Shown here: in pieces, positions 33,901 to 51,505 of the stretch
Numbering within the stretch: position 1 is the first letter of the stretch
Layout: each line of letters opens with the position of its first letter
Assembly (NCBI RefSeq): GCF_032854445.1
Contig: NC_088304.1
Span: 3,782,001 to 3,846,000, forward strand
DNA from: Liolophura sinensis
Taxonomy: Eukaryota; Mollusca; Polyplacophora; Chitonida; Chitonidae
Direction of reading: 5' to 3'
Length of the DNA: 64,000 bases
Notes under the pieces: model-generated
The model's database searches: none
Seen by the model: only the letters and a program-made list of their open reading frames with translations
What the model was told of the DNA's origin: nothing
Translations under genes and position numbers: made by a program

Positions 33901-36900
33901 TAAAAATGATGTTGCTACCTAGCTAGGAGCTCAGCACTGAGAGGTTAGAGTGAGGAAACGGGACTGGTTTGCCTGGTGTCAGTATAATGTGACTAGGTGG
34001 GATGTCATGTCTGGTGGCTTCAGCATGATACTTTGGCGACATGGACTTGCCCTGCCACATGAAGACAAAATATATCTACACACACCTGATGACTCCTAGT
34101 CTTCATATGACTGAAAAATTGTTACCTATTTACGAGAACGGTATCTAGAATGTGATCAGTGAGAACTGGGATTTCACATTACGTGAACTGTATCCGGAAT
34201 GTGATCAGTGAGAAGTGGGATTTCACGTTACACGAACTGTATCCGGCATGTGATCAGTGAGAAGTGGGATTTCACATTATGTGAACTGTATCCGGAATGT
34301 GATCAGTGAGAAGTGGGATTTCACGTTACACGAACTGTATCCGGCATGTGATCAGTGAGAAGTGGGATTTCACATTACATGAACTGTGTCCGGAATGTGA
34401 TCAGTGAGAACTGGGATTTCACCTTACACGAACTGTATCCAGCATGTGAGAAGTGAGAACTGGGATTTCACGTTACACGAACTGTATCCGGCATGTGATC
34501 AGTGAGAAGTGGGATTTCACATTAAGTGAACTGTATCCAGAATGTGATCAGTGAGAACTGGGATTTCACGTTACACGAACTGTATCCGGCATGTGGGAAG
34601 TGGGATTTCACATTACATGAACTGTATCCAGAATGTGATCAGTGAGAAGTGGGATTTCACCTTACACGAACTGTATCCAGAATGTGATCAGTGAGAAGTG
34701 GGATTTCACGTTACACGAACTGTATCCGGCATGTGAGAAGTGGGATTTCACATTACACGAACTGTATCCGGCATGTGATCAGTGAGAAGTGGGATTTCAC
34801 ATTACATGAACTGTATCCGGAATGTGATCAGTGAGAAGTGGGATTTCACATTACACGAACTGTATCCGGAATGTGATCAGTGAGAAGTGGGATTTCACAT
34901 TACGTGAACTGTATCCGGAATGTGATCAGTGAGAAGTGGGATTTCACGTTACACGATCTGTATCCGGCATGTGATCAGTGAGAAGTGGGATTTCACGTTA
35001 CACGAGCTGTATCCGGCATGTGATCAGTGAGAAGTGGGATTTCACATTACACGAGCTGTATCCGGCATGTGATCAGTGAGAAGTGGGATTTCACATTACG
35101 TGTCCCTAATGTGATCAGTGAGAAGTGGGATTTCACATTACATGAACTGTATCCGGAATGTGATCAGTGAGAAGTGGGATTTCACATTACGTGAACTGTG
35201 TCCGGAATATGATCAGTATAGTGACCATAACAAATAAAAGCCTAAAAAAATAACTATAAAAAATAAAAGAAATAGACAAACTGTTGAATTATCTCCCTGA
35301 AGTAGCCACATGTGATTGAATAGTTTGTATTTTACATTGGTACTTAACTCTGTGATAATGCACATTTTATCTTACAGTTAAGAGAGAAGTTAAGGAATTT
35401 GAGCACCAAGAGCTTCTTCAAATGGTAAGAATGATTTTACTGTTTTAGGATTAGGACAAATGTTGTTTGTGTGTGAAGGTTTGTCTTCACTGTTTTGTGG
35501 AGTGCAAATAATATCATACTCCATTGTTATACCAGTCAAATTTCACCACCCAAAAACTGGGAACACCACAAGTTAACAATTCGTTATCAGTGCTGTGAGT
35601 GTATACAAACAGGGGCCATACCTCCAAATTATCTGTAGCCCACCAGAAAGTGCAATAAAAAATATCTTAGCCGAGTCTGCCATTTTGCCTGTCAACACAT
35701 CCTGCGAAATCCTGTGCATTCAATGTGACATATCGAGTATTTTGATTGGCCACACTTGGAATCCAATCTGTTTTATTGGATAAACTCAGATGGTATTTGA
35801 TTGGTCAACCTGATGTTGTAAATCTGGATTGGTGGATGTCATTGAGAAGGTGGTTTTAGACCATATATCTTACAGCACATGTACCCCTCTCTACGCTGGC
35901 TTTACACCACTGCCACCTTTGGACAAGATTGACCTTTCTTACCACAGATATGCACATAGGCTTGCTTTGACTTAGCCTTGCCTCTTTTGTCTTCACATGG
36001 AACTATTTGTTCAGCATTCAGCAATAAAATTGTTTCGGGCGTTTGGTTAGATTCATGTTGTGCATATTAAAGATAGAGATAAAGAAAATACATGTGTAAA
36101 AGTATTATTAGAAACAAAGGTTGAGATACATGCAGATTGTTTGTGTTTTCTGGCATCATGTGACCTTGTTGGTGTTGAAAATTCCTGTACAAGATTTTCT
36201 GCTTGTGGCATTGATGTAAGCCATGACCATAGAGAGTGGCGTATACGCTTGTAAGGAGTAAGGTTCAAGACCGGGTTTACACGGTCGACATTATATAATT
36301 TAATTCACCTAAATGCTTTCATTTTAGCATTTTTCAGTTGACAAATTGTACTTGATTCTGATTGATTCATCCACTTTACCAAACCACTGAAGATGGGGGT
36401 TTTTTTTGTTTTTTTTTTTTTGATTTTTTGATTAAGAAATAAGCACTGGCATCATAAGTATCATTCTGAGGCTTTTATGTGCTTCATAAAGTGCATTTTT
36501 AAAGCCATACTTCAGGTGAAATAGAAAGGTGCCTAACTCTGAAGTCAGTGATTCAAAACCTAGTGGTTTCTGCCAGCTGAGTGCACTACATGTAGAACCT
36601 GTGAGTGTGCCCAGAAAGCGTGACTCCCAAATAGCGACTGTTTTGTTACAGTGCTCACGATTGGATGATTTTATCCGGCGGAGTGGCTCTCAGTTGGAGC
36701 AGAAGAGTTTCGACCAGGCCAGCACCGTGTGGGCAGGAATGGACATAGTGGCCAGGCTTGTCCAGGTGGGCCTGGGGCCTAAGGAGTTCCCTGCTCTGCA
36801 GGTACAGTGCATAGAATGCAAGCCCTTCCTATCAAGATTTAACACTGAGAAGCACTGTTTATCTCCCTAGGAAAACTTATAAATGTGCTTTCTGCTTTTA

Positions 36901-39900
36901 AGAAAGCAGGCCAAAAAAAAACATAAACCTGTGCACAGTTATACAGTTGAAATATTGCACAATGGTAAACACAAATGAATAATAAATAAATAGATTCTGC
37001 ACAGGATGTGTGGTCACTCATTTCTTGCTGTACAGCGTGTGTTAGCAGCAGTGTGTGAAGAGGACGAGGCAGAGAAGCGTCGGGAAGGCGGACTCTTGCC
37101 ACCCCGCCTCAGCATGGGAGCTGCTAATGTCCTGGATGCATTGTTCACGATGCTGGACTTCCTCTACAGAGAGGACCTCCGATTTGTCGAAGATTATAGG
37201 TCTGTTCACAATTCATTCAGATTTTATTTTTTCCATCACTTTTACCCTTTTCTGCCCTTTTCCATTTTCTGCACTGTTCAAATAGAGCTAATCAATTTGG
37301 CTACCCTTTTGGTTCAACTTATTTTAGGCTATAAAAGTAAAATCAAGACGGTGTTGTAATATATGAACCTTAAATATGCACCTCATGAACCAGTAGTTGT
37401 AATATATGAACCTTAAATATGCGCCTCATGAACCAGCAGTTGTAATATATGAACCTTAAATATGCACCTCATGAAGCAGCAGTTGTAATACTTGATCACA
37501 CATTTTCAACATCAAATTAGAGTAAGTCCAATTTCAAAATTTTAGTATCATCGTAATTTCAGGCTCTTTTGACCTTTGGTTGAACTGAGGAACGTACAAA
37601 GGGTATAAAAAAGTAATCTCCATGCTAACGCTATAAATACTTCATAGGGGTGTGCTGATACTCCCCTGTTCATGTGTGTGAAGTTGAAATTAAACTGCTA
37701 TGATTGACTTTTTATTTTCCATCAGTTTTCTAGGTAACATTATGCACTTTTCTACTAAACATCCGTTTTCCTCCCACCGTAGTGCTGGCCATTGTCGTAT
37801 AAGTCAAGTATTCTTGAGTCTGGCGTAAAACACTAATCAAATAAATAAATCCACAAAACAAGCCCTATGTTTATGTATGCGTGTACTTTGCCATATCGTT
37901 ACCTATGCTATGGATGAAGGGTATCATTTCCCAGAATTCCATTATTGTGTGGTATCTGCGGAACATACTGGTCATACAAGTTTCTGCGATCCCAGAATGC
38001 TATTTAGTCCTTCAAAAAAGTTGTGGTGTTCAGTTATGTGTAATGAGGTGTTTTGTCTTTCAGGGTGGCCATTGTGAGGTCTACATCTTACAGCCAGACC
38101 ATGGACACGGTAAGCGTGATCTGTAGTCTTCGTTTAAGAGGTCAGGAGGATCTGTGTTTTTATTGTAAATGCCTTACACACATCCTTTGGGAATTTCTAG
38201 CATTACAAAGTTGTATTGCCCTAATTCCTCAACATTTCACATGTGCAAGAGCAACATTCTGTACAATGTATGCATAATTGAATTTGACTTTGGACATAAA
38301 CCTACATTGGTTGAGTGGGCCCATTTCAGCGTTTCACAAAAACTATAATTTTATCAGTCTGCACAGAATAACGCCTTCAGAATATTACCCCAGTAAACAC
38401 CTTGAAAGAAGCGAACAGGTTGAAGAATTACAGTACATTGTTTTCTTGGTTGTAGTCTGGCCAGTGGCTGACCAGCAGAAAAAACAAAGGTAAGTGAGCA
38501 TAAGCTGGGCATAAATAGACATTCTATAAGTTGATCATCCAATTAGTTGCTCAGTCAAGTTTTGACGTCCTATTTTCTAACAGGGACATGCTATCTGTGT
38601 AGCTTGGGTCATGCTATCTGTGTAGCTTGGGTCATGCTATCTGTGTAGCTTGGGTCATGCTATCTGTGTAGCTTGGGACATGCTATCTGTGTAACATGGG
38701 TCATGCTATCTGTGTAGCTTGGGTCATGCTATCTGTGTAACATGAGTCATGCTATCTGTGTAGCTTGGGTCATGCTATCTGTGTAACATGGGTCATGCTA
38801 TCTGTGTAGCTTGGGTCATGCTATCTGTGTAACACGAGTCATGCTATCTGTGTAGCTTGGGTCATGCTATCTGTGTAGCATGGGTCATGCTATATGTGTA
38901 GCTTGGGTCATGCTATCTGTGTAACATGGGTCATGCTATCTGTAAAACATGGGTCATGCTATCTGTGTTTGAGTGAACACACAACCCTACACCAGGAAAT
39001 GTCACAGCTATCTGTGTAGCATGGGTCATGCTATCTGTGTAGCATGGGTCATGCTATATGTGTAGCTTGGGTCATGCTATCTGTGTAACATGGGTCATGC
39101 TATCTGTAAAACATGGGTCATGCTATCTGTGTTTAAGTGAACATACAACCCTACACCAGGAAATGTCACAGCTATCTGTGTAGCTCGGGTCATGCTATCT
39201 GTGTAGCATGGGTCATGCTATCTGTGTAGCATGGGTCATGCTATCTGTGTAACATGGGTCATGCTATCTGTGTAGCATGGGTCAAGGTATCTGTGTAGCT
39301 TGGGTCATGCTATCTGTGTAACATGAGTCATGCTATCTGTGTAACATGAGTCAAGCTATCTGTGTAACATGGGTCATGCTATCTGTGTAGCATGGGTCAT
39401 ACACTTAATGAAGGTTTGAGTGAACACACAACCCTACACCTGTCACAGCTGTCACAGCTATGTGTATAGAAAATTTGTTTCTTGAAGACGTAATTACCGT
39501 AAATACAAAGTGAACATATGATAGTCTTGTCTTGAATATTTCTTCTTTAAAAGTCATTGAGACATTTTAGGAAATTGTAACCAAACTGTTGAAAATGTTC
39601 TTAAACTGTGCATTTACAAATTTTATTACAGCTGTATGAGTTGATTTTGGGTTAAAATTTTTGACATCGTTTTAGCAAGAGCCATTTACTTAATTTGAGG
39701 GGGTGGGGACGGCAGTGTGCAAGACCAAATTGTCTTGCGAATTTTGCTTGTTGTAAATGTGATTCATCGTTCTAACAATGACTGTGATTTTGGGATAAAG
39801 TTTTATAGAAATGGATTTACTAATTTTGTGAAAGGGAAAGGCATCATAAATTTCAGTTTGCTAACCTACATTTTTATTGATATGTCAACAAACAAGAAAC

Positions 39901-42900
39901 TATATAGATTTCATCTCTTTGTAGGCAGACGAGAAATGCGCCAAGTTTTCACTCTCAACTTCTGGTGTTTGAACCCTGCAGTGGTATGTTATATTGTCTT
40001 TTATTACTTTGCAAAAGATTAAGAAAAATTCTGATTCATTTTGAATAGTGTGACTAAAATGCTGACTGTCATGGAACGCTTCATTGCTCTGGAAGAATCT
40101 TGTCCTGTGTTGTTACAAATGTTTATAGCTCCATTGCCACACAAAACCACATTTTATTTTTAGGTTTTCTCTATACCATAAATTTTAAGAGTAGATCAAG
40201 ACAGATCACTGTTGTCAAACCTTGGATGTTGGTTTCTTTTTTAAAAAATGGAAAACTCACGTTTGTGGAGGTTGAGGAAGCTTCACTGCACATTTCGGGC
40301 ACATGGCAAATACTATTTATAACTCTCCTATAAAATGCAAACCATTGCCCATCATCTTTTTCTCTTGCAACTGCAGGCATTTTCGGACTTTGCTCTGGTG
40401 CGTAACATTGTGTTAACCAGCGGTACTCTGTCTCCGATGAGCTCATTTAGCTCCGAGTTAGGAATGTCGTTTCCAATCCAGTTAGAGGCCAATCATGTCA
40501 TCAAGGACTCGCAGGTATTTTTCCCTATAATATATATATATGTATCTTTATAGAGTTATTTTGTGTCTCCAGTCCAAAAGGATTGATGTCTCCCTTTCAG
40601 AATGATGTAAGATTTCATGTTAGTATCAGTCCTTCAGTTTGTCTTTTAATCCATCAATAAAACTTGGCACATTTCTTGTCTGCCTACAAAGAGAAGGAAC
40701 CGGTGAAATTTAAGCACTGTCTTGTTGGTGATATATTAATAAATATGTAGGTTAGCAAACTACAATTTATGATGCCTTTCTCTTTCACAAAATTAGTAAA
40801 TCCATTGCCTTGAAACTTTATGCAGGTGTGGGTTGGCAGCATCGGTGAGGGTCCATCAGGAGGTAAACTCCAGGCAACCTACAGGAACACAGAGACGTTT
40901 GGCTTCCAAGATGAGCTGGGCAAGCTAGTGCTGGAGGTGTGCAGGGTGAGTAACTGGGACATCAAACAGGATGGATGAGCTGGGCAAACTAGTGCTGAAG
41001 GTGTGCAGGGTGAGTAACTGGGACATCAAACAGGATGCATGAGCTGGGCAAACTAGTGCTGAAGGTGTGCAGAGTTGGTAACTCTGATGTCAAACAGAAT
41101 GGATGAGCTGGGCAGACTAGTGCTGAAGGTGTGCAGAGTGAGTAACTGGGATGCCAAACAGGATGGATGAGCTGGGCAGACTAGTGCCGAAAGTGTGCAG
41201 AGTGAGTAACTGGGATGCTAAACAGGATGGATGAGCTGGGTAGACTAGTGCTGAAGGTGTGCAGGGTGAGTAACTGGGACGGCAAACAGAATGGATGAGC
41301 TGGGCAGACTAGTGCTGAAAGTGTGCAGGGTGAGTAACTGGGACGTCAAACAGGATGGATGATGTGGGCAAACTAGTATTGAAAGTGTTCAGGGTGAGTA
41401 GGACATCAAACAGGGTGGATGAGCTGGGCAGACTAGTGCTGAAAGTGTGCAGGGTGAGTAACTGGATGGTCAAAAAGCTTGATTTGAACAGAAATGTTGT
41501 AAAACTGTTTTGTGAACACTAACCTGTACCTTTGATAACAATGTTTTAGTCATGAATAACATTTAATTTTTTTCACAGATATGGTGTGGTTTTGGCTCTT
41601 TGATCACCGCATGCCCTCAAATATTTGACACCAGTTTTGATCACTCAAAAAAGTTGGAAGTTCATTATGAAATGGAACCTGGAAGTTTACACAGCCTTGG
41701 TTTCTGAGATATTTTGGCTTTTCTAAATGCTAAGGCTCACATGTTTCCTGAAACCTATCATTGGAAGAAGAAACATTCATGTCATAATTCTAACAATATT
41801 TTCCGGCTATTCCTCATGGAGTTCTGTGTTTCGGGCTATTCCTCATGGAGTTCTGTGTTTCGGGCTATTCCTCATGGAGTTCTGTGTTTCGGGCTATTCC
41901 TCATGGTGTTCTGTGTTTCAGGCTATTCCTCATGGAGTTGTGTGTTTCAGGCTATTCCTCATGGTGTTCTGTGTTTCAGGCTATTCCTCATGGAGTTCTG
42001 TGTTTCAGGCTATTCCTCATGGAGTTCTGTGTTTCAGGCTATTCCTCATGGAGTTTTGTGTTTCAGGCTCTTCCTCATGGAGTTTTGTGTTTCAGGCTAT
42101 TCCTCATGGAGTTGTGTGTTTCAGGCTATTCATCATGGAGTTTTGTGTTTCGGGCTATTCCTCATGGTGTTCTGTGTTTCAGGCTATTTCTCATGGAGTT
42201 CTGTGTTTCAGGCTATTCCTCATGGAGTTGTGTGTTTCAGGGTATTCCTCATGGTGTTCTGTGTTTCAGGCTATTCCTCATGGAGTTCTGTGTTTCAGGC
42301 TATTCCTCATGGAGTTCTGTGTTTCAGGCTCTTCCTCATGGAGTTTTGTGTTTCAGTCTCTTCCTCATGGAGTTGTGTGTTTCAGGCTATTCCTCATGGA
42401 GTTGTGTGTTTCAGGCTCTTCTTCATGGAGTTCTGTGTTTCAGGCTATTCTTCATGGAATTGTGTGTTTCAGGCTATTCTTCACAGATTTGTGTGTTTCA
42501 GGCAATTCCTCATGGAATTCTGTGTTTCAGGCTATTCTTCACAGAGTTGTGTGTTTCAGGCTATTCTTCATGGAGTTGTGTGTTCCAGGCTCTTCTTCAT
42601 GGAGTTGTGTGTTTCAGGCTCTTCTTCATGGAGTTGTGTGCTTCAGGCTCTTCCTCATGGAGTTGTGTGTTTCAGGCTCTTCCTCATGGAATTTTGTGTT
42701 TCAGGCTATTCCTCATGGAGTTCTATGTTTCAGGCTATCCCTCATGGAGTTCTATGTTTCAGGCTATTCCTCATGGAGTTCTGTGTTTCCTACCCTCATA
42801 CAAAATGCTGGACAAACTGTCAGAGCGGTGGCAGGTGAGTGGTTTCTGTTAGAGAGTGACTGGAATGAGAATCGGAATCAGAGGTTCAGTGGCTATAGAA

Positions 42901-45900
42901 AAGTTATAGGAAAGTGATAGAATACAGAGACCAGAAAAAGTGGTTACACTTGGAGAGTAATCTGTATCCTTGCTACTTTGTCAGCGTAGTAGATTTGGAG
43001 ATCATACCTGTTTACATTGCTGCAAAAAAAACAATTACATTTCTGATTATTTAATAGACATTCCATCAATTATGTAGTAAAACTATAAAAAATACATGTG
43101 TGTAAAAAATAAATAATGTTTAATGTTCTAGAAATTCTAATGTGAGGAAATTTTACTTTATTTAATTTTTTGTTTATTTAAAGAGGACTGGCATTTATTA
43201 CAAAGGTTGTCTGTCCTTTTCCTTAGTATTGTTTTCTTGTTTAGGCCAAAACACAGTAAATGCTGCATTAGATTTGGAAAAATGCTGCTAAAATTATGAT
43301 TGTAAAACCTTCTTGTTTCCCCTCAATGTGCTCCTTGGTGTTTTAGCTCACAGGACTGTGGGGTGAGATCATCAAGAAGAAAAAGATAATCGCTGAGCCG
43401 CGACGAGGAGACAAGGCAGACTTTGATGACCTTCTCAAATACTTTTATGGTGTGATCGAGGGGGGAGCTGAGGATGACGATTATGGTGGGTCAGAAATTT
43501 TGTTGTTTCACTTTGATGACACAACTTGTTGTTTGCTACTTGAATTCCAATGAAGCATTCAACTAAAACTCAAATGGAATTTCACAAACTTTTGTAATTT
43601 TGCAGATACATGTAGGTGGGAAGAAAGAGGCTATACGACAAGCCCCAGGTTAACTTTGGAACATGTACTTCGCCTGTGTAGAGGTTATACATGTACTAGT
43701 TAGTCCATGGCCAAGAGGGTAAGCACCCCAGCACGGCGCATTGACCCAGGTTCCTCTCACCAATGTGGTCGGTGTGAGTTCAAGTCCTGCTTATGCTGGC
43801 TTCCTGTCCGGCCGAACGTGGGAAGGATTATCAAGTCCAGCTTATGCTGGCTTCCTGTCCGGCCGAACGTGGGAAGGTTTATCAAGTCCAGCTTATGCTG
43901 GCTTCCTGTCCAGCCAAACATGGGAAGGTTTATTACAGCCTGCAGATGGTCATGGGTTTCCCCCTGGGTTCTGCCAGGTTTTCTCCCACCATATAAATCC
44001 TGGTCGCCATGGTATAAGTGAAATATATATTCTTGAGTGCAGCGTAAAACACCAATCAAATAAATGCTTGCTAGTCAAATAAAATTTTCTTTATTTTTGC
44101 AAGAATTGCTTATATTATTGCCTTCCATTAAAAGATTCTAAAGTTTGGAAATGTTTTAATTTGAGTCAGTTTTAAGAACTTTATAACAGATTTTGAATGA
44201 AAACACATGCAAATACGACACTGACGATAAAAACGATATTTTGTGAAAGGTAAATATTCTAATAAACTAAAAAAATTCTGTTGGATTTGTGATGATTGAT
44301 CTTTTGCCAGTAATGTGCAGCATATCCATTTTAATGTTTAAACATTTAGAAGATTTACAGTATTATTCATTGATCCCCATTCGCGGGTACTCTACAAACC
44401 AAGAAAAAACCCACCCCCAAAACCACCACCCTCCAACCTCCACCCAACCCTCCCACTCAACACCCAGCACCATACCTCACCCAAAATGTTATTCGTGTTC
44501 GTTTAGACTAACATGCTTTGTCTTTGACGATGCCCACATTTATGTTGATAAACCCGTATATCATTTCTCCGTGTGATGACCCCTTCTACGAACAGACTAT
44601 GACGAGACGGATGGAGCTGATTCAGAAGTTGACGGGGCACTCTTCCTGGCCGTTTGTCGAGGTAAAGTCAGTGAAGGACTGGACTTTGCAGATAACAACG
44701 CCAGGGCTGGTCATCACAGTAAGAGATGAAGTACAATATTGGCTGAGATGCATATTAAAATATATAAATAAAATAAATCTTTTAACCTGGTTGCTACAAT
44801 CTTATCCTTGCTAGTTCAACAGCAATGATTATATCTGGAACGGATGGATCCACCACATCCAATGTCCTACAACCCCTTCTGGTGAAAATGTTACTTTTCA
44901 TTCCATTCCATGGGAAAGCAATTGTGAGGTTATGACATCACAAAAAATTTGAACATTTGTAACCAATGTGTGGGACATCCAGTTGGCCTACATTGAACAA
45001 TGTTGATTATGATTGGCTAAATATGTGTTCTTGATTGACATTTTGGAAAGGTCTATCTATCATCTACTTGGTAAAGGGCGATGGTTTTCACCAGCCATAA
45101 ATTGACATGGGTCATGTGAGAAAAAATATGTAGTACCAGAAAAGAGCATTCAGAAATGATCAACCAGTAATGATTAACCAGTAATGATCAACCAGTAGTG
45201 ATCGATGGGGGTCATTAATCTGTTTGGCTAGTGCAGAATGAATGAATGATTATGGCTTAATGCCTCATCGGCAATATTTCAGCCATATCGTGGCGACACT
45301 AGTGCAGAACTAATGGGTCGAATTTAATTCAGTTTTATTTAAAGCTGAATTACATTGGACTTTTGAATTACGTTGGAGCTGTAACTGACTTTTGCGGCGT
45401 GAGGCATGAATAGCTGGCAAACTTTGGAATGCTACATGTACGTGGATATGTTTTGGTTTCCAAGCCCTTTATTAATACAATGTGTATAATGAATTGTTTT
45501 CTCCATGGATTATGTACAATTTGTGTTTTACTCTAATTTCAGGTAGGAATTCCATTTCCGAATTTCAAGGATATTCAGGTAAGTGTTGTCAGAATAAAGG
45601 AATTAAATTGAAGAATTCTGTTAATGCTCCACACTGTGGTTCGTGAATATCGTATGATAACGTCATCTGAGCGTAACAATGTGAGACATTTTTGCTGAAA
45701 TACTTTATATGTGTCACGATATTTTATTCAAATAATGAATCCTAAGTGTTCTACTCTAAATAGTAAAATTACTAAGAAGGCTGTCAATATAATTGTTGAT
45801 ATTCCATTGACCATGTTTTATCGTAATATCCATAGTTGCTCACATGAGTAGCATTTAACACATGTGTAAGCCATGTTTAAAGCTTTGTTGAAGGTAGTGC

Positions 45901-48900
45901 AGAAAAAAAATGTTTTGTCAACTGGGCACTGAGCATCAAACACACAGTTTTTATATATATAGCAGTGAAAGGTACTGATGTTTGTACCGTTGTTTGCCAT
46001 TCAGGTATGTTTGACTCTTCACAGGTAGAGTTAAAGAGAAAGTATAACGACAGGTACAACAAACGAGCGTGGACTGTTGTCAGGCAGTGAGTGGTACGAG
46101 ATACAGGCGTACAGAGCTCTTAACCAGGCCCTGGGCAGGTGTATAAGACATAGGTCAGTTGTTNNNNNNNNNNNNNNNNNNNNNNNNNNNNNNNNNNNNN
46201 NNNNNNNNNNNNNNNNNNNNNNNNNNNNNNNNNNNNNNNNNNNNNNNNNNNNNNNNNNNNNNNNNNNNNNNNNNNNNNNNNNNNNNNNNNNNNNNNNNNN
46301 NNNNNNNNNNNNNNNNNNNNNNNNNNNNNNNNNNNNNNNNNNNNNNNNNNNNNNNNNNNNNNNAGTCCAGAAGAAAACTCAGAATTCCAATAAAAGGCCA
46401 AAAGGGGTGGATTTCCTTGATGACGGGGATGATGACAGACCAGCTGGTAACAAGGTTCAGAATCTCACTATAACATTTATATATGTATGTATTTATCTGT
46501 TTGGGAGGTTCTATCTGGCTCAGATAATTATCAAATTGATTGCTCACCATGACAACCAGGCCCTTGACCAATGAGTTTGTATGTTTGAATCCAGCTTTCA
46601 ATGGGTAAACCAACGTCCTTATGCCATGTTCAGCCAACCAAAACGTTTCAAATAAAAAAAGACACCCACAGAGGAATTTGTGCAGTGAACAGTATTGCTC
46701 AGATGTGCTCCTTAGATTCTTACTAATTTTATATACGTCCTTGTTTTGTGGAGGTGGGGGGGGGGGGGGGGGTTGTGTTTTTTTTTTTAAACTGCTGCAA
46801 CTTATGCTTTTACTGTTTTAGGAAGAGAAAACTTCAAAAGGAAATGTACGCTGTGTCAGATGTGGATCTGTCCTTGTACAAAATGCTGAAGGGTAATGTG
46901 TATATGTAAATTCATCAGGAACACAAGCCTGAAATAACTCATATTTCTGAGGTACAAGTGTATTTGGTGAGAGTTGCCTTTCTGGTGATCACCAGATTTC
47001 CTCCTTCCATAAGACTTTATTACCACTGTGAAGTTTAGTGGTAAGCTGTAAATTGCATGAGAGAGATAAGCTGTGACTTCATAGTAGTATACTTTTGACT
47101 TCATAGTAGTATACTTTTGACTTCATAGTAGTATACTTTTGACTTCATAGTAGTATACTTTTGACTTCATAGTAGTATACTTTTGACTTCATAGTAGTAT
47201 ACTTTTGACTTCATAGTAGTATACTTTTGACATCATAGTAGTATACTTTTGACTTCATAGTAGTATACTTTGGTAGTAAAGGAAACAGTTTTCAGTTGTA
47301 CTATGGAATCATCTCCAGAAATATAAAGTTTGATGGTAGTAAGCTATGCTAACTTCTATCAGGTACAGCAAAGTTTGTTTTTTTTTCAGTACACCTGATA
47401 GCCATTGCTTGTTAAAAACTATTTTGAAGTCTTTAAAATTTTTCCATTTTTTAAATTCATTTTATTGGGGCTTTTCACTGTACATGTACTCAAGAATTTA
47501 TGGCTTTAACAACTGTGGTCAGGATTGTCGATTGATGAGGTCATAAAACCACTCCCCTTTGACGGGTTTCTGATAAATCTGATTTATCTCTAGCTGAGCC
47601 AGTGAGTGTGACAGTGAGTGTGACAGGGAGTGTGACATTGATGTTCAGATATTCAGCGTCACTGTTTAAGCAGCAGTTGGTTGTGTCAAGACCGAAGCTT
47701 TAATAGTTAAATAGAGGTCTTTTGCATATACTCTTATAGCAACTCCCCATCACAATCAGCAGATTTATTTATTCATTTATTTATTTGATCAGTGTTCACT
47801 GACACGACAGCGGCCGGCATTATGATGGGAGGAAACCGGACAGAGCTCAGGGGAAACCCAGACCATTTGCAGGTTGCTGAGAGACCTCCCCATTTACGGC
47901 CGGAGAGGATACCAAATTTAAAACTCCTGTTATATTTTTCAGAAATGATTGACTGGTTATGGCTTTACACCAGCTCCGTTGCAGTATTTTTATAGTCGTA
48001 TAATTATGATGTACACTCAGGAGACGACGAAGGAACAATGAACACCTTTTACCACTGACTGCCAAACTGACCGCATCTGTACATTACAGGTACTGAGAAG
48101 AGGAAGAGACTGCCATCATTTCTCACATCCGTGTGGAATCAGCATATTTGCGAAAACGTGTTCATAAATCAGGGGCAGATAACCCAACAGCTCATTCCTG
48201 TCGCCTGCTCTTCAGATTGTTGTGGTAAGTTTTGGATCTCCAGGTACTGAAAGTTCTGCATATTTATTAGATTCATTACATTATTGTCTCAAGTGTTGCA
48301 CCTCATTGTGCCTGTATTTCTGATGGGAACTTTGCTGAACTGTGGAATGAAAGGAGATAATTCACTGTTAAGTGTATTATTTCGCGTTATGTGTATCTTC
48401 CCACTTCAGACTCCACAGTATTTCATGTTGAGTTTGGCTTAAAAGAAAAAGTCACTTTTGTCTTAAAGTCTCATGTCTCTGTGTGTTTCAGATGGAGTTC
48501 AGCTCAACAGTCAGTGGGACGTGACCAGTCAGTGTTGCATACAGTATCTCAGGTGTAAATCTTGTTCTCATGGAGACACAAATGTTATCCTAGGAGCACG
48601 CATTGCTCTAGCATCTGAAAACAGTGACTTTAAGCCCGGACAGGTAAGTCAATACAAATGTTATCCTAGGAGCACGCATTGCTCTAGCATCTGAAAACAG
48701 TGACTTTAAGCCCGGACAGGTAAGTCAATTCAAATGTTATCCTAGGAGCACGCATTGCTCTAGCATCTGAAAACAGTGACTTTAAGCCCGGACAGGTAAG
48801 TCAATACAAATGTTATCCTAGGAGCACGCATTGCTCTAGCATCTGAAAACAGTGACTTTAAGCCCGGACAGGTAAGTCAACACAAATGTTATCCTAGGAG

Positions 48901-51505
48901 CACGCATTGCTCTAGCATCTGAAAACAGTGACTTTAAGCCCGGACAGGTAAGTCAATACAAATGTTATCCTAGGAGCACGCATTGCTCTAGCATCTGAAA
49001 ACAGTGACTTTAAGCCCGGACAGGTAAGTCAATTCAAATGTTATCCTAGGAGCACGCATTGCTCTAGCATCTGAAAACAGTGACTTTAAGCCCAGACAGG
49101 TAAGTCAATACAAATGTTATCCTAGGAGCACGCATTGCTCTAGCATCTGAAAACAGTGACTTTAAGCCCGGACAGGTAAGTCAACACAAATGTTATCCTA
49201 GGAGCACGCATTGCTCTAGCATCTGAAAACAGTGACTTTAAGCCCGGACAGGTAAGTCAACACAAATGTTATCCTAGGAGCACTCTTTGCTCTAGCATAT
49301 GAAAACAGTGACTTTTAGAGCTGACAGGTAAATCAAACCTTACCAACATTTAAATTTTTAAAGTATTTAATTGTAACTATAGCGAAGATTTTTGACCAAA
49401 AAAAAAATGCTAATCAAACCAAATTTTCTGTATTTTAAAGTAATATCAGACTCATACATATGCTATCTGTAGTCTTTAAATGATTGACTAAGTTATAATG
49501 TGACCTTAAATTATGAATAATGTGAATTTAAATTTTGTGATCTTCCTGGCCAATTTTTTAATAGTACCATGAGCACAAGCGAAGTTTATTTTTTGTTATC
49601 GGTAGTTATCTGGGATATTCTAAAATAATAGCAGAAATTCAATTAGATTTGTGCTCATTGATTTTTGGCCAAAAATTTCTGGGATGGCCACTGTAATCAT
49701 TAAGTTTTTCTGTGTCTTTTTTTTGGGGGGCCCCAAAAGTATTTTTAGACCTACAGTCACGGAAAAAATTATTAGACCACTCATATTTTCTTTGGTTTCT
49801 TGTTCATTTTAATGCCTGGCAACCCTAAAGGTGTATTAACCGAAGATTACAATGAATACGACAAAAATCCAGCTGATTCCATAATACTTTGTCGTATTTG
49901 ATATGCTTTAAGGTCAGTTGTATTCCTAGGGTGTATGCGAGGCAATTTCATGCTTTCCATTTACATACAGACTTACATAAAGAGTGGTTTCCTGTTTACA
50001 TGTAGGCTTACATAAATAGGGGTCTCTTGTTTATATATTAAGACGCAGCACAACTCGGTAGTTGTCAGCTCTCATAATGCCTAAAGCGAAAGAATTATGT
50101 GGAACCAGAAAGGCAGCCATCTTGGCACAGCTGGATACTGGATTGAGCGAGCGACAAGTGGCCAAAAAACTGAAGATCTCTAAGACAGCAGTTCATTACA
50201 CCAAGAAAAAGCAAGCCGAACGTGGTACTACAAAACTGCTAGCTGGTCGAGCCAGGAAACGTCTTTCTACCCCACGAGATGACCGAGCACTCATCCGGTC
50301 CTGTATCAAGAATGGTCGTCAGACCTCCAGAGACCTTAGAAATGAGTGGGCATTGTCAACAAATGTGACTTGTTCAGCAAGAACAGTTCGAAACCGACTT
50401 CTTGAAGCTGGTCTAAAGTCGCACAGGGCACGGAAGAAGCCCTTCATCAACGAGAGGCAGCGGAAGGCCCGCTTGCGTTTTGCGAGGGATCACAAGAGTT
50501 GGACTGTTGATGATTGGGCTAAAGTTCTCTTCAGTGATGAATCCAATTTTGAGTTGATGCCTACTCCAGCCAACTCACTGGTTAGGAGGAAGCCTGGGGA
50601 AGCCTACAAACCAGACTGCCTTGCTCCTACTGTAAAGCATGGGGGTGGATCAGTGATGATCTGGGGTTGTTTCAGTATGGGTGGAACAGGACAGATGCAG
50701 TTGTGAGTTGGCTCGAATGACTGGATTTTCCAACAAGACAATGTCCCTTGCCACACGGCAAGGTCAGTTAAAACCTGGATAGAGAACCGGAACATTCGAA
50801 CCATGAATTGGCCTGCTCAGTCACCTGATCTGAATCCAATTGAAAACCTGTGGAATATTATCAAGTTCAAAATTTAGAACCACTAGCCGAAAAACAAAGC
50901 AAATTTGTTCGAATTTTTGCAACAGGAATGGGCTGCTGTGACCGCAGGGCAATGTAACAAACTGGTGGAGAGCATGCCAAGGCGCATGGCTGCAGTCATC
51001 AAAAACAATGGGCATGCAATCAAGTACTAACTCCCGTGTGAGACTGAGAGTCATGTGACTACGTGACTAGGAGACAGGAGAAAAAATGAAATGCCAAAAT
51101 GTTTTTGAGAATACAGTTGCTACATCTACAGATGTATGAACTTAAGTGATTTTGGTCATTGTCAAGAAAGTCATAGAGAACTGATAGATATCACCTCTTA
51201 AATAAAACCCTTATGAACTATTTCTGTTTTCATCACTTTCTTTGTCCAAACAAATGTTCCTTCAGTTGTGCAAGGTTTTAAAATGAACAAGAAATGGGAG
51301 AAAGCAAGGGTGGTCTAATAATTTTTTCCATGACTGTATATGTGATTCTGAGAGTGTATTTTTACAAACTTTTGAAAATATAGTAATCTGAGTGAAAGAA
51401 AAAGGTTAATGCCTAATTTGGTTACATTTATTATGCAGAACACCAATATTTGACTTCTTCCTTTATATTTTGCAGATTTGGCTTCAGGCGACTACTGTGA
51501 CGTGA
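18893..51505 (+). CDS. BRIP1: BRIP1/FANCJ-type Fe-S DNA helicase, whole gene
   Basis: This is the span of the reconstructed gene; exons are listed separately. FANCJ/BRIP1 is a nuclear superfamily 2, 5'-to-3' DNA helicase of the XPD group that acts in interstrand crosslink repair, G-quadruplex unwinding and replication-fork maintenance. Evidence in order: SPTGSGKS with lysine 52, the same number as in human [14 protein letters not shown] (motif Ia); four Fe-S cysteines in EHTCIHP, GCRDL, GPGCLF and [15 protein letters not shown] (motif II); [65 protein letters not shown] (motif VI). Exons 1-5 and 7-21 keep phase. Problems: exon 6 boundaries are uncertain, exons 22 and 24 each contain one apparent extra base, an exon is lost in the N gap, and phases at the 3' end (exons 26-29) are not fully reconciled. 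The 3' end is provisional. Identity is near certain; the C-terminus is not. Confidence 0.9.
19247..19358 (+). CDS. BRIP1: helicase exon 2 (Walker A)
   Basis: Acceptor TATTTTAG, donor GTGAGA. It encodes [20 protein letters not shown] then [13 protein letters not shown]. The ATP-binding lysine is residue 52. It ends in phase 1. Confidence 0.95.
19977..20033 (+). CDS. BRIP1: helicase exon 3
   Basis: Acceptor TTCTTTCAG, donor GTTTCA (weak). It encodes [19 protein letters not shown], in phase 1 at both ends. It begins the variable linker between Walker A and motif Ia. Confidence 0.75.
20585..20776 (+). CDS. BRIP1: helicase exon 4 (Pro/Ser/Asn-rich linker)
   Basis: Acceptor CTGTTTGAAG, donor GTAAGA, phase 1 throughout. 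It encodes [17 protein letters not shown] and a Pro-rich run ending SLLNTSKL, a low-complexity insert between motifs I and Ia. Its length and phase fit the neighbours. Confidence 0.75.
22835..23090. repeat. tandem array, 45 bp x about 6 (intron 4)
   Basis: Units contain CATGAACTGTTGGTGGTAGG and AGCATAGACTAACTGCTCAG. The period divides by three, which creates a spurious - strand ORF. Confidence 0.93.
23348..23520. repeat. degenerate tandem repeat, 3 copies (intron 4)
   Basis: Three diverged copies of a unit with TTGAAATCTGCACTCTGA, GTATGGAAGTGTGA and GAAAATTACAGTTG, about 55-65 bp each. Confidence 0.7.
23598..23719 (+). CDS. BRIP1: helicase exon 5 (acidic linker)
   Basis: Acceptor TTATTTCAG, donor GTACAC; enters in phase 1 and leaves in phase 0. 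It encodes [20 protein letters not shown], a five-Asp run, then [15 protein letters not shown]. It is a linker with acidic and basic patches and no motif I can name. Confidence 0.8.
24484..24769 (+). CDS. BRIP1: helicase exon 6a (boundaries uncertain)
   Basis: Two models exist. In the first, an acceptor after GAGGCAG starts the exon at 24,524 in phase 0 ([19 protein letters not shown]) and a donor CAG/GTTTGT at 24,769 ends it in phase 0; no indel is needed. In the second, the exon runs from 24,484 ([14 protein letters not shown]) to 24,995 without a break, but three single-base insertions (near 24,530, 24,771 and 24,942) would be required. From 24,606 the sequence is a degenerate 15/30 bp repeat coding Val-Ser-Asn-Gln / Val-Pro-Gly-Gln blocks. 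I prefer the first model only because it needs no sequence change. Confidence 0.5.
24606..24840. repeat. degenerate 15/30 bp repeat in helicase exon 6
   Basis: Repeats of TCAGATTGTGTCCAATCAA and GTGCCAGG. On the + strand they code Gln/Val/Pro/Asn blocks, on the - strand a FDWTQxDLxQL-like periodic frame. The array appears to extend over the proposed donor at 24,769. Confidence 0.85.
24943..24995 (+). CDS. BRIP1: helicase exon 6b (basic microexon)
   Basis: Acceptor GTCCGACTCTTTAG, donor GTAAGT. It encodes [18 protein letters not shown] in phase 0, and the final two bases (AA) join the next exon to read [12 protein letters not shown]. The basic PPPPKRK patch may act as a nuclear localisation signal (inference). 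Confidence 0.7.
25121..25350 (-). mobile_element. SINE copy with degenerate head (intron 6)
   Basis: Tail ATTTATTTATTTGATTGGAG at left, core TTTTACGCAAAACTCTAGAA, then CTTCCCGTGTACGATTAGAG. It continues past the point where most copies stop into GAAGCCACCATGAGCAC and CATTGATGGCATTGGCGAAA, probably the antisense of the tRNA-like head. Diverged. Confidence 0.7.
25351..30385. other. large helicase intron, no exon seen
   Basis: Five kilobases of AT-rich intron. A possible tRNA-like B box (TGTTGGTTCAATCCTGGC) at about 30,012-30,030 may be an old SINE head. A 141-codon frame at 30,054-30,479 only partly overlaps exon 7 and is otherwise intronic. Confidence 0.5.
30386..30475 (+). CDS. BRIP1: helicase exon 7 (motif Ia)
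   Basis: Acceptor GTTTTGTGCAG, donor GTAAGT. It encodes [20 protein letters not shown] then [18 protein letters not shown] is characteristic of FANCJ/XPD-group helicases. Enters and leaves in phase 2. Confidence 0.95.
30751..30903 (-). mobile_element. SINE copy (intron 7), head-truncated
   Basis: TTTATTTGATTGGTGTTTTA at left, then GCCAGCCAGCATTATGGTGG and a last block CTTCCCACATAAGG. Same family as 8,411-8,570. Confidence 0.8.
31676..31769 (+). CDS. BRIP1: helicase exon 8 (Fe-S cysteines 1 and 2)
   Basis: Acceptor TTGTTCCACAG, donor GTGAGT. It encodes [18 protein letters not shown] and then NDGCRDLLD. The cysteines of TCIHP and GCRDL match the first two Fe-S ligands of FANCJ. Enters in phase 2, leaves in phase 0. 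Confidence 0.95.
32383..32514 (+). CDS. BRIP1: helicase exon 9 (Fe-S cysteine 3)
   Basis: Acceptor ACCTTCTTTAG, donor GTGAGT. It encodes [20 protein letters not shown] followed by [25 protein letters not shown] supplies the third ligand; AWDIEDLV is conserved in FANCJ. Phase 0 at both ends. Confidence 0.95.
33000..33095 (+). CDS. BRIP1: helicase exon 10 (Fe-S cysteine 4)
   Basis: Acceptor TTTTCACCTCAG, donor GTGAGT. It encodes [20 protein letters not shown] and [16 protein letters not shown] carries the fourth ligand and [10 protein letters not shown] is a family hallmark. Phase 0. Confidence 0.95.
33634..33769 (+). CDS. BRIP1: helicase exon 11 (DEAH box)
   Basis: Acceptor TCATGACAACAG, donor GTAAGA. 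It encodes [20 protein letters not shown] followed by [29 protein letters not shown] is motif II, which binds Mg-ATP. Ends in phase 1. Confidence 0.95.
33812..34090 (+). mobile_element. second tRNA-derived SINE type (intron 11)
   Basis: GGCCTAATGGTTAGAGCACC (A-box region) and GGATCAAACCCGGGTCAG (B box) form a tRNA-like head. The body is GGTTTGCCTGGTGTCAGTAT, AATGTGACTAGGTGGGATGT and CATGATACTTTGGCGACATG. This body differs from the other SINE family and resembles a TATAATGTGACTGGGTGGGGT-like core I recall from molluscan genomes (not checked). Confidence 0.65.
34130..35217. repeat. tandem array, 49 bp x about 21 (intron 11)
   Basis: Units contain GAACTGTATCCGGAATGTGA and TCAGTGAGAAGTGGGATTTC. 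Two unit types, GTGAACTG...GGAATG and CACGAACTG...GGCATG, alternate over part of the array, suggesting dimer-level expansion. Some units are shortened (near 34,590 and 34,730). Confidence 0.95.
35378..35424 (+). CDS. BRIP1: helicase exon 12
   Basis: Acceptor TTATCTTACAG, donor GTAAGA. It encodes [16 protein letters not shown]; phase 1 in, phase 0 out. It is short but phase-consistent with both neighbours. Confidence 0.8.
36652..36801 (+). CDS. BRIP1: helicase exon 13
   Basis: Acceptor TTTTGTTACAG, donor GTACAG, phase 0. It encodes [20 protein letters not shown], then [20 protein letters not shown] and FPALQ. It belongs to the arch/HD1 insertion region of FANCJ. Confidence 0.85.
37036..37199 (+). 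CDS. BRIP1: helicase exon 14
   Basis: Acceptor CTTGCTGTACAG; donor GTCTGT. It encodes [20 protein letters not shown], then [20 protein letters not shown] and FVEDYR. FVEDYRVAI, formed with the next exon, matches the FANCJ segment before NFWCLNPAV. Ends in phase 2. Confidence 0.9.
37355..37495. repeat. tandem repeat, 44 bp x 3 (intron 14)
   Basis: Three copies of TTGTAATATATGAACCTTAA plus ATATGCACCTCATGAACCAG. Confidence 0.9.
37765..37852 (+). mobile_element. SINE 3' half (intron 14)
   Basis: TTTTCCTCCCACCGTAGTGC, TGGCCATTGTCGTATAAGTC, ATTCTTGAGTCTGGCGTAAA, then ACACTAATCAAATAAATAAA. Core and tail only. Confidence 0.8.
38064..38109 (+). CDS. BRIP1: helicase exon 15
   Basis: Acceptor TTTGTCTTTCAG, donor GTAAGC. 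It encodes [15 protein letters not shown]; phase 2 in, phase 0 out. Confidence 0.85.
38456..38489 (+). CDS. BRIP1: helicase exon 16 (microexon)
   Basis: A 34-base exon between acceptor TTGGTTGTAG and donor GTAAGT. It encodes [11 protein letters not shown] and corrects the phase from 0 to 1, as exon 17 requires. The basic RKNK-GRRE stretch it creates corresponds to the basic segment before the NFWCLNPAV motif in FANCJ. Confidence 0.75.
38580..39420. repeat. tandem array, 23 bp, with higher-order structure (intron 16)
   Basis: Units are GTCATGCTATCTGTGTAGCT plus TGG, or AACATGG variants. A non-array block (GAGTGAACACACAACCCTAC, then ACCAGGAAATGTCACAGC) recurs at about 38,970, 39,135 and 39,416, so a longer block has itself been duplicated. 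Confidence 0.93.
39925..39983 (+). CDS. BRIP1: helicase exon 17
   Basis: Acceptor ATCTCTTTGTAG, donor GTATGT. It encodes [19 protein letters not shown]; phase 1 in, phase 0 out. NFWCLNPAV is highly characteristic of FANCJ. Confidence 0.95.
40377..40514 (+). CDS. BRIP1: helicase exon 18
   Basis: Acceptor CTTGCAACTGCAG, donor GTATTT, phase 0. It encodes [20 protein letters not shown] and then [30 protein letters not shown] is motif III. Confidence 0.95.
40826..40945 (+). CDS. BRIP1: helicase exon 19
   Basis: Acceptor CTTTATGCAG, donor GTGAGT, phase 0. It encodes [20 protein letters not shown] and [20 protein letters not shown]. Its last 36 bases and the donor are the first copy of the 64 bp array that fills the start of the intron. 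Confidence 0.93.
40910..41470. repeat. 64 bp x 9 array duplicating exon 19 end and donor
   Basis: The unit runs GATGAGCTGGGCAAGCTAGT, GCTGGAGGTGTGCAGGGTGA, GTAACTGGGACATCAAACAG, GATG. Its first copy is the 3' end of exon 19 plus the intron start. Eight further copies lie in the intron; most keep a GTGAGT donor, while copy 3 has lost it (GAGTTGGT). Reading through the first donor reaches TGA after about ten codons. Confidence 0.95.
41805..42790. repeat. 29 bp x 34 array duplicating exon 20 acceptor
   Basis: The unit is GCTATTCCTCATGGAGTTCT GTGTTTCAG, i.e. the first 20 coding bases of exon 20 plus a pyrimidine-rich tract and AG. First and last copies are 957 bp apart, exactly 33 periods. Most copies keep TTTCAG; the first four and one near 42,150 have TTTCGG or CCGG. 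Because 29 is not divisible by three, all three frames are open, giving spurious ORFs of 335-396 codons. Confidence 0.96.
42763..42834 (+). CDS. BRIP1: helicase exon 20
   Basis: It uses the last acceptor of the 29 bp array (TCTATGTTTCAG) and donor GTGAGT, phase 0. It encodes [20 protein letters not shown] followed by [14 protein letters not shown] matches the start of the FANCJ helicase C-terminal domain. Confidence 0.93.
43347..43485 (+). CDS. BRIP1: helicase exon 21
   Basis: Acceptor TTGGTGTTTTAG, donor GTGGGT. It encodes [20 protein letters not shown] and then [20 protein letters not shown] with an acidic end. Ends in phase 1. Confidence 0.92.
43706..44068 (+). mobile_element. most complete SINE copy, internally triplicated (intron 21)
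   Basis: tRNA-like head CATGGCCAAGAGGGTAAGCA (A-box region) and GGTGTGAGTTCAAGTCCTGC (B box). Then the segment TCAAGTCCAGCTTATGCTGG, CTTCCTGTCCGGCCGAACGT, GGGAAGG occurs three times. The body follows (TTTCTCCCACCATATAAATC, TATTCTTGAGTGCAGCGTAA) and the tail AACACCAATCAAATAAATG. It sets the orientation of all the other copies. Confidence 0.85.
44400..44475. repeat. A/C-only tract (intron 21)
   Basis: About 75 bases almost entirely A and C (AAACCCACCCCCAAAACCAC, CACCCTCCAACC and similar), a strongly strand-biased low-complexity tract. Confidence 0.7.
44596..44718 (+). CDS. BRIP1: helicase exon 22 (motif V), one extra base
   Basis: Acceptor TTCTACGAACAG, donor GTAAGA. It encodes [20 protein letters not shown] then [18 protein letters not shown]. 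After ARA the family reads V-I-T, but here GCTGGTCATCACA has one G more than GCT-GTC-ATC-ACA. Without that G the exon ends in phase 0 as exon 23 requires; with it the frame breaks. It may be an assembly error, a polymorphism or a genuine lesion. Confidence 0.88.
45543..45578 (+). CDS. BRIP1: helicase exon 23 (microexon)
   Basis: A 36-base exon, acceptor TCTAATTTCAG, donor GTAAGT, phase 0. It encodes [12 protein letters not shown], matching the FANCJ segment after ARAVIT. Confidence 0.93.
46025..46153 (+). CDS. BRIP1: helicase exon 24 (motif VI), one extra base
   Basis: Acceptor CTCTTCACAG, donor GTCAGT. It begins [14 protein letters not shown] in phase 0. Then, one base out of frame, it continues [20 protein letters not shown] and ALGRCIRHR. 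The extra base lies between 46,064 and 46,068; left as is, the frame hits TGA soon after. [10 protein letters not shown] is motif VI with its arginine finger. The corrected exon ends in phase 2, ten bases before the N gap. Confidence 0.9.
46164..46363. other. assembly gap, 200 N
   Basis: Exactly 200 N, probably a placeholder length. It begins ten bases into intron 24. The coding segment expected just after motif VI in FANCJ (the NDWGALILVDDRF region) is absent from the flanks, so at least one exon is probably hidden here. Confidence 0.97.
46365..46454 (+). CDS. BRIP1: helicase exon 25 (partial, at gap edge)
   Basis: The frame after the gap reads [20 protein letters not shown] then [10 protein letters not shown], a charged linker. 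Two donors are possible: 46,446 (GTAACA, phase 1) or 46,454 (GTTCAG, phase 0). The second agrees with exon 26. The 5' boundary is lost in the gap. Confidence 0.55.
46756..46772. repeat. poly-G run
   Basis: Seventeen G followed by a T-rich tract, just before exon 26; a likely sequencing or assembly weak point. Confidence 0.9.
46822..46892 (+). CDS. BRIP1: helicase exon 26 (first CxxC)
   Basis: Acceptor TTTACTGTTTTAG; donor GTAATG. In phase 0 it encodes [24 protein letters not shown] in two blocks. RCVRCGSVL looks like half of a zinc ribbon. The end phase (2) does not match exon 27 (phase 1), so one base or one boundary here is unresolved. Confidence 0.55.
47085..47275. repeat. tandem array, 23 bp x 8 (intron 26)
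   Basis: Copies of TGACTTCATAGTAGTATACT TTT, nearly identical. Confidence 0.95.
47762..47908 (-). mobile_element. SINE copy (intron 26)
   Basis: Tail TTTATTTATTCATTTATTTA at left, shortened core (ACACGACAGCGGCCGGCATT), GGGAGGAAACCGGACAGAGC and final CATTTACGGCCGGAGAGG. Confidence 0.8.
48090..48224 (+). CDS. BRIP1: helicase exon 27
   Basis: Acceptor TCTGTACATTACAG, donor GTAAGT, phase 1 at both ends. It encodes [20 protein letters not shown], then [20 protein letters not shown] and SDCC. It joins the next exon cleanly. I cannot match it to the vertebrate FANCJ tail. Confidence 0.65.
48492..48643 (+). CDS. BRIP1: helicase exon 28 (second CxxC)
   Basis: Acceptor GTGTGTTTCAG, donor GTAAGT; phase 1 in, phase 0 out. 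It encodes [20 protein letters not shown], then [20 protein letters not shown] and [16 protein letters not shown] with the following G-A-R-I resembles the second half of a two-CxxC zinc fold. Its last 63 bases and donor are repeated nine times downstream. Confidence 0.65.
48581..49330. repeat. 76 bp x 10 array duplicating exon 28 end and donor
   Basis: The unit is AATGTTATCCTAGGAGCACG, CATTGCTCTAGCATCTGAAA, ACAGTGACTTTAAGCCCGGA, CAGGTAAGTCAATACA. First and last starts are 684 bp apart, exactly 9 periods. Every copy keeps a GTAAGT or GTAAAT donor. Read-through of the first donor meets TGA within the second copy because 76 leaves remainder 1 on division by three. Confidence 0.96.
49754..51336 (+). 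mobile_element. Tc1/mariner-type transposon in intron 28
   Basis: A 1,583 bp element between TA dinucleotides (49,752-49,753 and 51,337-51,338), the usual Tc1 target duplication. The ends are inverted: CAGTCACGGAAAAAATTATT on the left against the complement of AATAATTTTTTCCATGACTG on the right. Similarity continues for about 57 bp to TTTCTTGTTCATTTTAA. It contains one transposase reading frame. Confidence 0.93.
50077..51030 (+). pseudogene. Tc1-like DD34E transposase with three in-frame stops
   Basis: The frame from [16 protein letters not shown] to IKY-TAA is 317 codons, close to full length for Tc1 transposases. The N-terminal part carries helix-turn-helix DNA-binding features ([20 protein letters not shown]). 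The catalytic triad sites are present: [15 protein letters not shown] and NPIENLW, with 34 residues between the second D and the E. Three stops break the frame without any shift: TGA at 50,704 and TAG at 50,875 and 50,884. It is therefore inactive as read, but only mildly decayed. Confidence 0.93.

Follow-up and report, generated by a model that had tools for sequence, protein, structure and literature searches.

Gene Structure and the Boundaries of Intron 19

The window, that is, the whole 64-kb stretch of chiton DNA analysed here, contains a gene that had been described as BRIP1-like in an earlier note made from the sequence alone. This assignment is borne out by a comparison with human FANCJ (PDB 9ej9), to which 655 residues of the joined exon translations are aligned with an E-value of 4e-193, and the gene is referred to below as BRIP1/FANCJ-like. 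Seventeen exons were placed with their splice signals, 14 of them upstream of exon 20. The exon numbers are labels kept from the earlier reading, and the region of the 5' insert as well as the 3' end are only partly modelled. One of the exons, at 35,378-35,424, is 47 nt long and was placed on the basis of reading frame and splice signals.

Exon 19 (40,826-40,945, + strand) is in phase 0-0, aligns to human FANCJ 9ej9 without any gap and is delimited by CAG/GTGTGG at its start and TGCAGG/GTGAGT at its end. Exon 20 (42,763-42,834, + strand, 72 nt), identified from the FANCJ alignment, forms the start of the Helicase_C_2 domain (Pfam PF13307, E 1.1e-15). At the junction of the two exons, the spliced protein is aligned gap-free to human FANCJ, CHL1 and XPD. 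Because the junction aligns gap-free to FANCJ, the outermost sites, 40,945/40,946 and 42,762/42,763, are regarded as the authentic donor and acceptor, and the ends of intron 19 given previously (40,946 and 42,762) are correct. The gene model requires only these outermost splice sites.

Some other features of the gene should be mentioned here. A 30-bp tandem repeat occupies 24,652-24,831 within a probable coding exon of the insert region, and the reading frame shifts there at a unit that appears to hold an extra base. Inverted repeats of 97 nt (89% match) and 41 nt (90%) lie around exon 18, at 39,795-39,949 and 40,659-40,821. One of these arm pairs includes a reversed copy of the acceptor together with the first bases of the exon at 39,925, so junction sequence has been copied in the inverted orientation too. 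Around 46,070, conserved helicase sequence runs on in two reading frames, which is an apparent frame break of the assembly or of an allele (46,000-46,363), and a 200-base gap is located close to it at 46,164-46,363.

Two Arrays at the Two Ends of the Intron

Intron 19 was said to be made up of copies of the splice junctions at its two ends, and the unit tables together with Tandem Repeats Finder (TRF) show that this is right. Two arrays, one at each end, make up 1,483 of the 1,817 intron bases, as expected from the previous estimate of about 1.5 of 1.8 kb.

The donor-side array (40,910-41,465, + strand) consists of 8.8 copies of a 64-bp unit with a TRF score of 818, and each unit joins 36 nt from the end of exon 19 to the first 28 nt of the intron. 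Donor-like sites are found at 40,946, 41,010, 41,074, 41,138, 41,202, 41,266, 41,330, 41,394, and 41,454. The nine units counted earlier therefore stand as nine positions, but the first of them is exon 19 itself, and the site at 41,074 is broken, reading GTTGGT where the other eight have GTGAGT. The unit at the exon 19 boundary differs from the intronic copies, unlike the corresponding unit of exon 20, which equals the consensus of its array. Between the two arrays lies a single-copy spacer (41,466-41,799, + strand), which holds an acceptor-like sequence, TTTTTTTCACAG, ending at 41,578.

The acceptor-side array (41,800-42,789, + strand) comprises 34.1 copies with a TRF score of 1567, that is, 33 intronic units and the copy in the exon, in strict 29-bp register according to TRF and the unit table. 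The unit was thought to hold the first 20 bases of exon 20; in fact it is composed of the first 27 nt (GCTATTCCTCATGGAGTTCTGTGTTTC, codons AIPHGVLCF) followed by AG (27 + 2 = 29), and the exon 20 copy is identical to the consensus across all 27 bases. There are indeed 34 acceptor positions, including the true site, but AG is present at only 29 of them. The five AG-less positions (41,806; 41,835; 41,864; 41,893; 42,154) have CG or GG instead; the four most upstream positions are among them. The VLCF codons provide the pyrimidine tract of the unit, and a branch-point-like CTCAT, with its A at -19, lies within the PHG codons; the motif YTNAY occurs in 32 of the 33 intronic units. By position, the last intronic unit (42,734-42,762, + strand) serves as the 3' splice site, with the same CTCAT, pyrimidine tract and AG. 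Apart from its AG, then, the unit comes from exon 20, and the present acceptor owes both its branch-like motif and its pyrimidine tract to copied coding sequence.

Immediately to the left of the first unit, at 41,777-41,805 (+ strand), a branch-like CTAAC and a TTTTC precede a CG, at the place that AG takes in the units. This is presumably the original 3' splice site, about 1 kb upstream of the present one, whose AG would have been lost. Higher-order repeats within the 29-bp array are not supported (94 of 1000 shuffles were as good), and the pairing between donor unit and acceptor unit is not exceptional, its energy of -20.7 kcal/mol being matched by 46 of 300 shuffles.

Strength of the Sites and Consequences of Their Use

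How, then, do the copies compare with the authentic sites? The true donor and five of the copies pair with U1 at -11.7 kcal/mol, two others at -8.1 and the broken site at 41,074 at -4.4; among 14 other donors of the gene, the values lie between -5.3 and -13.3 kcal/mol. The acceptors were scored with a small position matrix, which does not measure use, derived from 15 other acceptors of the gene (leave-one-out scores from -6.3 to 10.4). By this matrix the true acceptor ranks 25th of the 34 positions (score 4.0; best copies 7.9), and among the 29 AG-bearing positions 24 score above it, one ties with it and three score below it. Two AGs inside the units, at 42,486 and 42,544, score still higher (9.0 and 9.2). 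Local sequence thus does not favour the authentic sites over the copies on either the acceptor or the donor side. Consequently, if the true site is used, it must be singled out by its position and the rest of the exon.

An acceptor is generally found by scanning from the branch point to the next AG. If this holds here, the last unit must contain the branch point for 42,763, since 28 further acceptor positions with AG come after the presumed ancestral branch motif and before that site, and the copied codons would then constitute the present 3' splice site. The copies may see some use, most of all the third and sixth acceptors upstream, which are in frame, and the caution of the earlier note about splicing is warranted.

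The donor side was considered frame-protected, with a stop after about ten codons, and a TGA is indeed the 11th codon past the true donor for all seven intact downstream donors tested (7/7). Every intact downstream donor includes this TGA, and therefore its use would truncate the protein. On the acceptor side, it was expected that every third upstream site stays in frame, and among the acceptors one to six units upstream, the third and sixth keep the frame of the gene and would add 29 and 58 residues, respectively, while the first, second, fourth and fifth reach a stop; for the first two of these (+29 and +58 nt), the stop falls within exon 21, before the next modelled exon.

The acceptor array was also described as open in all three frames, and all three sense frames of the 957 bp are indeed free of stops (0, 0, 0), compared with 31, 30, and 26 stops in the antisense frames, but 25% of shuffled 29-mers are equally open in a composite frame. 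This absence is somewhat surprising, as the chance of zero stops is about 0.06 for 19 independent variants and 0.0002 if all 58 differing cells are independent, the number of events not being fixed. Among the distinct variants of the copies in exon columns, 7 of 18 are synonymous vs. an expected 29-34%; therefore the copies show no sign of coding constraint.

Relation to Mirages and Similar Systems

A minisatellite that spans an exon-intron boundary has been termed a mirage. In amphioxus, mirages are reported in Adh3, the globin genes BflGb6 and BflGb9, troponin C, and PGBD5. They occur on either side of the boundary, have units from 10-72 bp (Adh3) to 150-160 bp (globins), and keep splice signals in a large number of their copies, though not in every one. 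The same description includes length differences between haplotypes, somatic instability and regular splicing (PMC3087553; PMC3902484). According to the work on the Adh and globin genes, the copies could act as cryptic sites (PMC3087553), and in another account, partial exons with splice sites are described in the introns of amphioxus VCBP3 (PMC2632668).

The arrays of intron 19 fit this class, which the earlier note does not name, for the boundary is crossed at both ends, by 36 nt into exon 19 and 27 nt into exon 20, and GT and AG are kept in many, not all, copies, as known here from one assembled haplotype. The likeness to amphioxus concerns both the position of the tandem repeats and the partial retention of splice signals. 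Unlike the amphioxus cases, however, the arrays are found in a mollusc and at both ends of one intron, with 33 intronic acceptor units, and the acceptor unit takes only the AG from the intron, whereas its branch-like motif and pyrimidine tract come from codons. Within the parts of the literature searched (including PMC3087553, PMC3902484, PMC2632668, PMC3618361, PMC11121367, and PMC11068029), named mirages came up for amphioxus alone, from which no claim of absence in print for chitons or molluscs is made.

Two further systems are worth comparing. In the model of Rogers, as cited in the amphioxus work, introns are gained via duplication around AG/GT proto-splice sites (PMC3087553). Here too, duplication across AG/GT sequences makes splice sites from exon sequence; but no new intron has arisen in the chiton, where an existing intron has been lengthened and its splice signals would have been replaced. 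The donor-side array also resembles the human interferon-induced minisatellite in lying at an exon end and supplying several donor sites. That minisatellite, attributed to Turri in 1995, is said to contain multiple splice donor sites, several of which are reportedly used in transcripts, while the chiton donor copies are candidate sites, predicted from sequence.

Junction-Crossing Arrays in the Window and the Genome

Could similar arrays occur at other junctions? In a second gene of the window, encoding a CARD domain (spliced exons, Pfam CARD, E 4.2e-8), a donor mirage of five 120-bp units (87 nt of exon and 33 nt of intron) is located at 59,609-60,210 on the - strand, with the true donor after base 60,124. 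A probable donor mirage of ten 76-bp units, which contain ACAG/GTAAGT, lies at 48,578-49,336 (+ strand); its exon (48,492-48,643) was placed from an ORF and splice signals only and had no match in homology searches, and this array was left out of the window count. In total, 3 of the 24 arrays in the window cross one of the 33 supported junctions; intron 19 accounts for two of these and the CARD exon, at its donor, for the third. This is no significant excess over random placement, either for the window (3 vs. 1.2, P 0.12) or for the BRIP1 body alone (2 vs. 1.2, P 0.34). When 35 supported junctions were compared with the whole window, tandem copies were found at none beyond the three known ones, together with two inverted matches. 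A 49-bp array at 34,136-35,217 was considered as a further mirage and rejected, as it lies clear of the closest exon located (35,378-35,424).

In twenty 10-kb stretches taken at fixed coordinates (200 kb), 58 minisatellite arrays of 60 bp or more account for 19.3% of the sequence, and their share per stretch varies from 0 to 74%. In search of junction-crossing arrays elsewhere in the genome, 49 exon matches were sampled, comprising the 20 AAA matches listed (19 of 135 candidates scored) and 29 of 76 Helicase_C matches. The latter are ranks 3-35, leaving aside seven matches within or above this range that lie in open frames longer than 300 residues, plus one lower match located in a stretch already taken, with the other 47 outside the sample. 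Crossing arrays were found at none of the 20 AAA and 3 of the 29 Helicase_C matches, all three at donors. The first (L051, 543-1001) has 39-bp units and 11 donor sites seen, the second (L054, 541-1001, reverse strand) has 69-bp units and six donor sites seen, and the third (L050, 530-960) has about 19 units of 22 bp by TRF and 12 donor sites seen. The exons of L050 and L051 are presumably DEAD-box-like and that of L054 SNF2-like. The donor of L050, GTCAGT, repeats the exon's own GTCAGTTATATCCATAGAATAG, that is, the donor is a copy of a 22-bp exon stretch. Two small arrays, one of 35 bp near L031 and one near L036 that starts beyond the donor, were left out of the count.

Overall, 3 of the 49 sampled matches are crossed by an array, vs. 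7.5% of random 160-nt stretches, and none of the 49 is swallowed by one, vs. 15.1%; these rates are estimates because HMM matches stand in for exons. The probability of finding none swallowed, 0.849^49, is about 3e-4, a rough figure since the comparison stretches include DNA outside genes. As crossing occurs at about the random rate, junction-crossing copies seem to be tolerated, not selected. The donor side accounts for five of the six crossing arrays with supported exons, which is a small sample.

Origin of the Arrays and Alternative Explanations

Most probably, intron 19 carries two independent mirage minisatellites, one per junction, which are passive, were seeded by duplication, expanded into the intron and have been tolerated. 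The anatomy, the gene, the junctions and the copy numbers are observed directly; from the sequence we infer how the duplication took place, that the ancestral site was lost and that mainly the outermost sites are used. The probable seed of each array was a tandem duplication that bridged exon and intron, with its ends in short matching sequences. For the acceptor side, TTTC is found at both breakpoints, i.e., at the presumed old intron end and in the VLCF codons of exon 20, and it closes the exon-derived part of the 29-bp unit, ahead of CTACCC; a duplication between the two TTTC copies would therefore yield the 29-bp unit. Once placed upstream of an AG, the coding CTCAT and pyrimidine tract could have become a splice signal, and growth of the arrays into the intron through slippage or unequal exchange would have left the presumed original 3' splice site, now without AG, about 1 kb away. 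Such expansion would be tolerated because the outermost copy, the sole one joined to a complete exon, stays a working splice site.

Three other explanations deserve consideration. The earlier note had suggested that upstream acceptors are used to make a family of length variants, or that the array acts as an AG decoy. Regulated use of upstream acceptors would lengthen FANCJ by 29 residues for every three units, where the helicase C-terminal domain begins, and the AG at 29 of 34 positions, the branch-like motif before the pyrimidine tract in 32 of 33 units, the three open sense frames and the low rank of the true acceptor in a small matrix (25th of 34) would be in line with it. However, nothing was found to support either function. 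The variants lack signs of coding constraint (7 of 18 synonymous), four of the six upstream acceptors tested lead to a stop, the arrays are placed at about a random rate, and any insert would break a stretch that aligns gap-free; the amphioxus mirages are also said to leave splicing undisturbed (PMC3087553; PMC3902484). We regard regulated length variants as improbable.

Slightly less improbable, though still unlikely, is a damper of expression, in which competing sites divert transcripts to frameshifted, degraded products and array length tunes the output, with no selection for variants of the protein. Five donor copies equal the true donor in U1 pairing, the TGA at the 11th codon awaits 7/7 intact downstream donors, and the +29- and +58-nt acceptors stop within exon 21, all as such a damper would have it, and it is compatible with a passive origin of the arrays. 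It requires appreciable use of the copies, however, and nothing points to selection for damping. Finally, the arrays might have been collapsed or expanded by the assembler, as tandem copy numbers are error-prone and the gap at 46,164-46,363 has a frame break nearby. But the units are diverged rather than identical copies, the same kind of array occurs at other loci, and the assembly report (PMC11068029, as Liolophura japonica) gives PacBio HiFi reads with a mean of 8,347 bp at 14X, which can span the 1.8-kb intron. An assembly artefact is therefore highly improbable, and two passive mirages remain the preferred explanation.

A broader proposal is more tentative, and we would put it at a little less than an even chance. 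In chitons, minisatellites that cross junctions may convert coding sequence into working splice signals throughout the genome. The branch point and pyrimidine tract of BRIP1 intron 19 would now consist entirely of codons copied from exon 20, the ancestral 3' site some 1 kb upstream being dead, and the donor GTCAGT of the DEAD-box gene L050 would likewise be an exon copy. Splice sites would thus pass from the original intron to exon copies, and natural ladders with as many as about 30 sites of nearly equal strength would be resolved by position or exon context, not by local strength.

The choice of the spliceosome among near-identical sites is usually studied with built minigenes. The nine donor positions and 29 AG-bearing acceptors of intron 19 are natural ladders in which the true site is not marked by local strength, and further ladders occur in a few genes; they would allow position, exon context and decay to be separated using ordinary cDNA. 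The arrays also extend mirages to a mollusc with about 19% minisatellite in the sampled DNA, and would offer a direct way for exon codons to replace the splice signals of an intron. Judging from the few conserved exons sampled, crossing arrays seem to be tolerated about as random placement predicts, and exon-swallowing arrays were not seen in the 49.

Other Repeats in the Window and the Sample

Scans of the 64-kb window for tRNA genes and Rfam families gave no match. A SINE-like interspersed repeat of about 150 bp, which resembles molluscan repeats, is present in many diverged copies (8413, 11411, 25118, 30749, 37763, 43936, 47795, 54918, 57583, and others), one of which is adjoined by a tandem array of three 51-bp units (43,780-43,933). 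Among the sampled AAA matches, the same part of the profile is matched twice 261 bp apart, at L029 and L031 (C1:39401644 and 39401905), which is perhaps a duplicated exon. Also in the window, a remnant of a Tc1-like transposase (PF01498) lies at 50,062-51,027, in several open frames.
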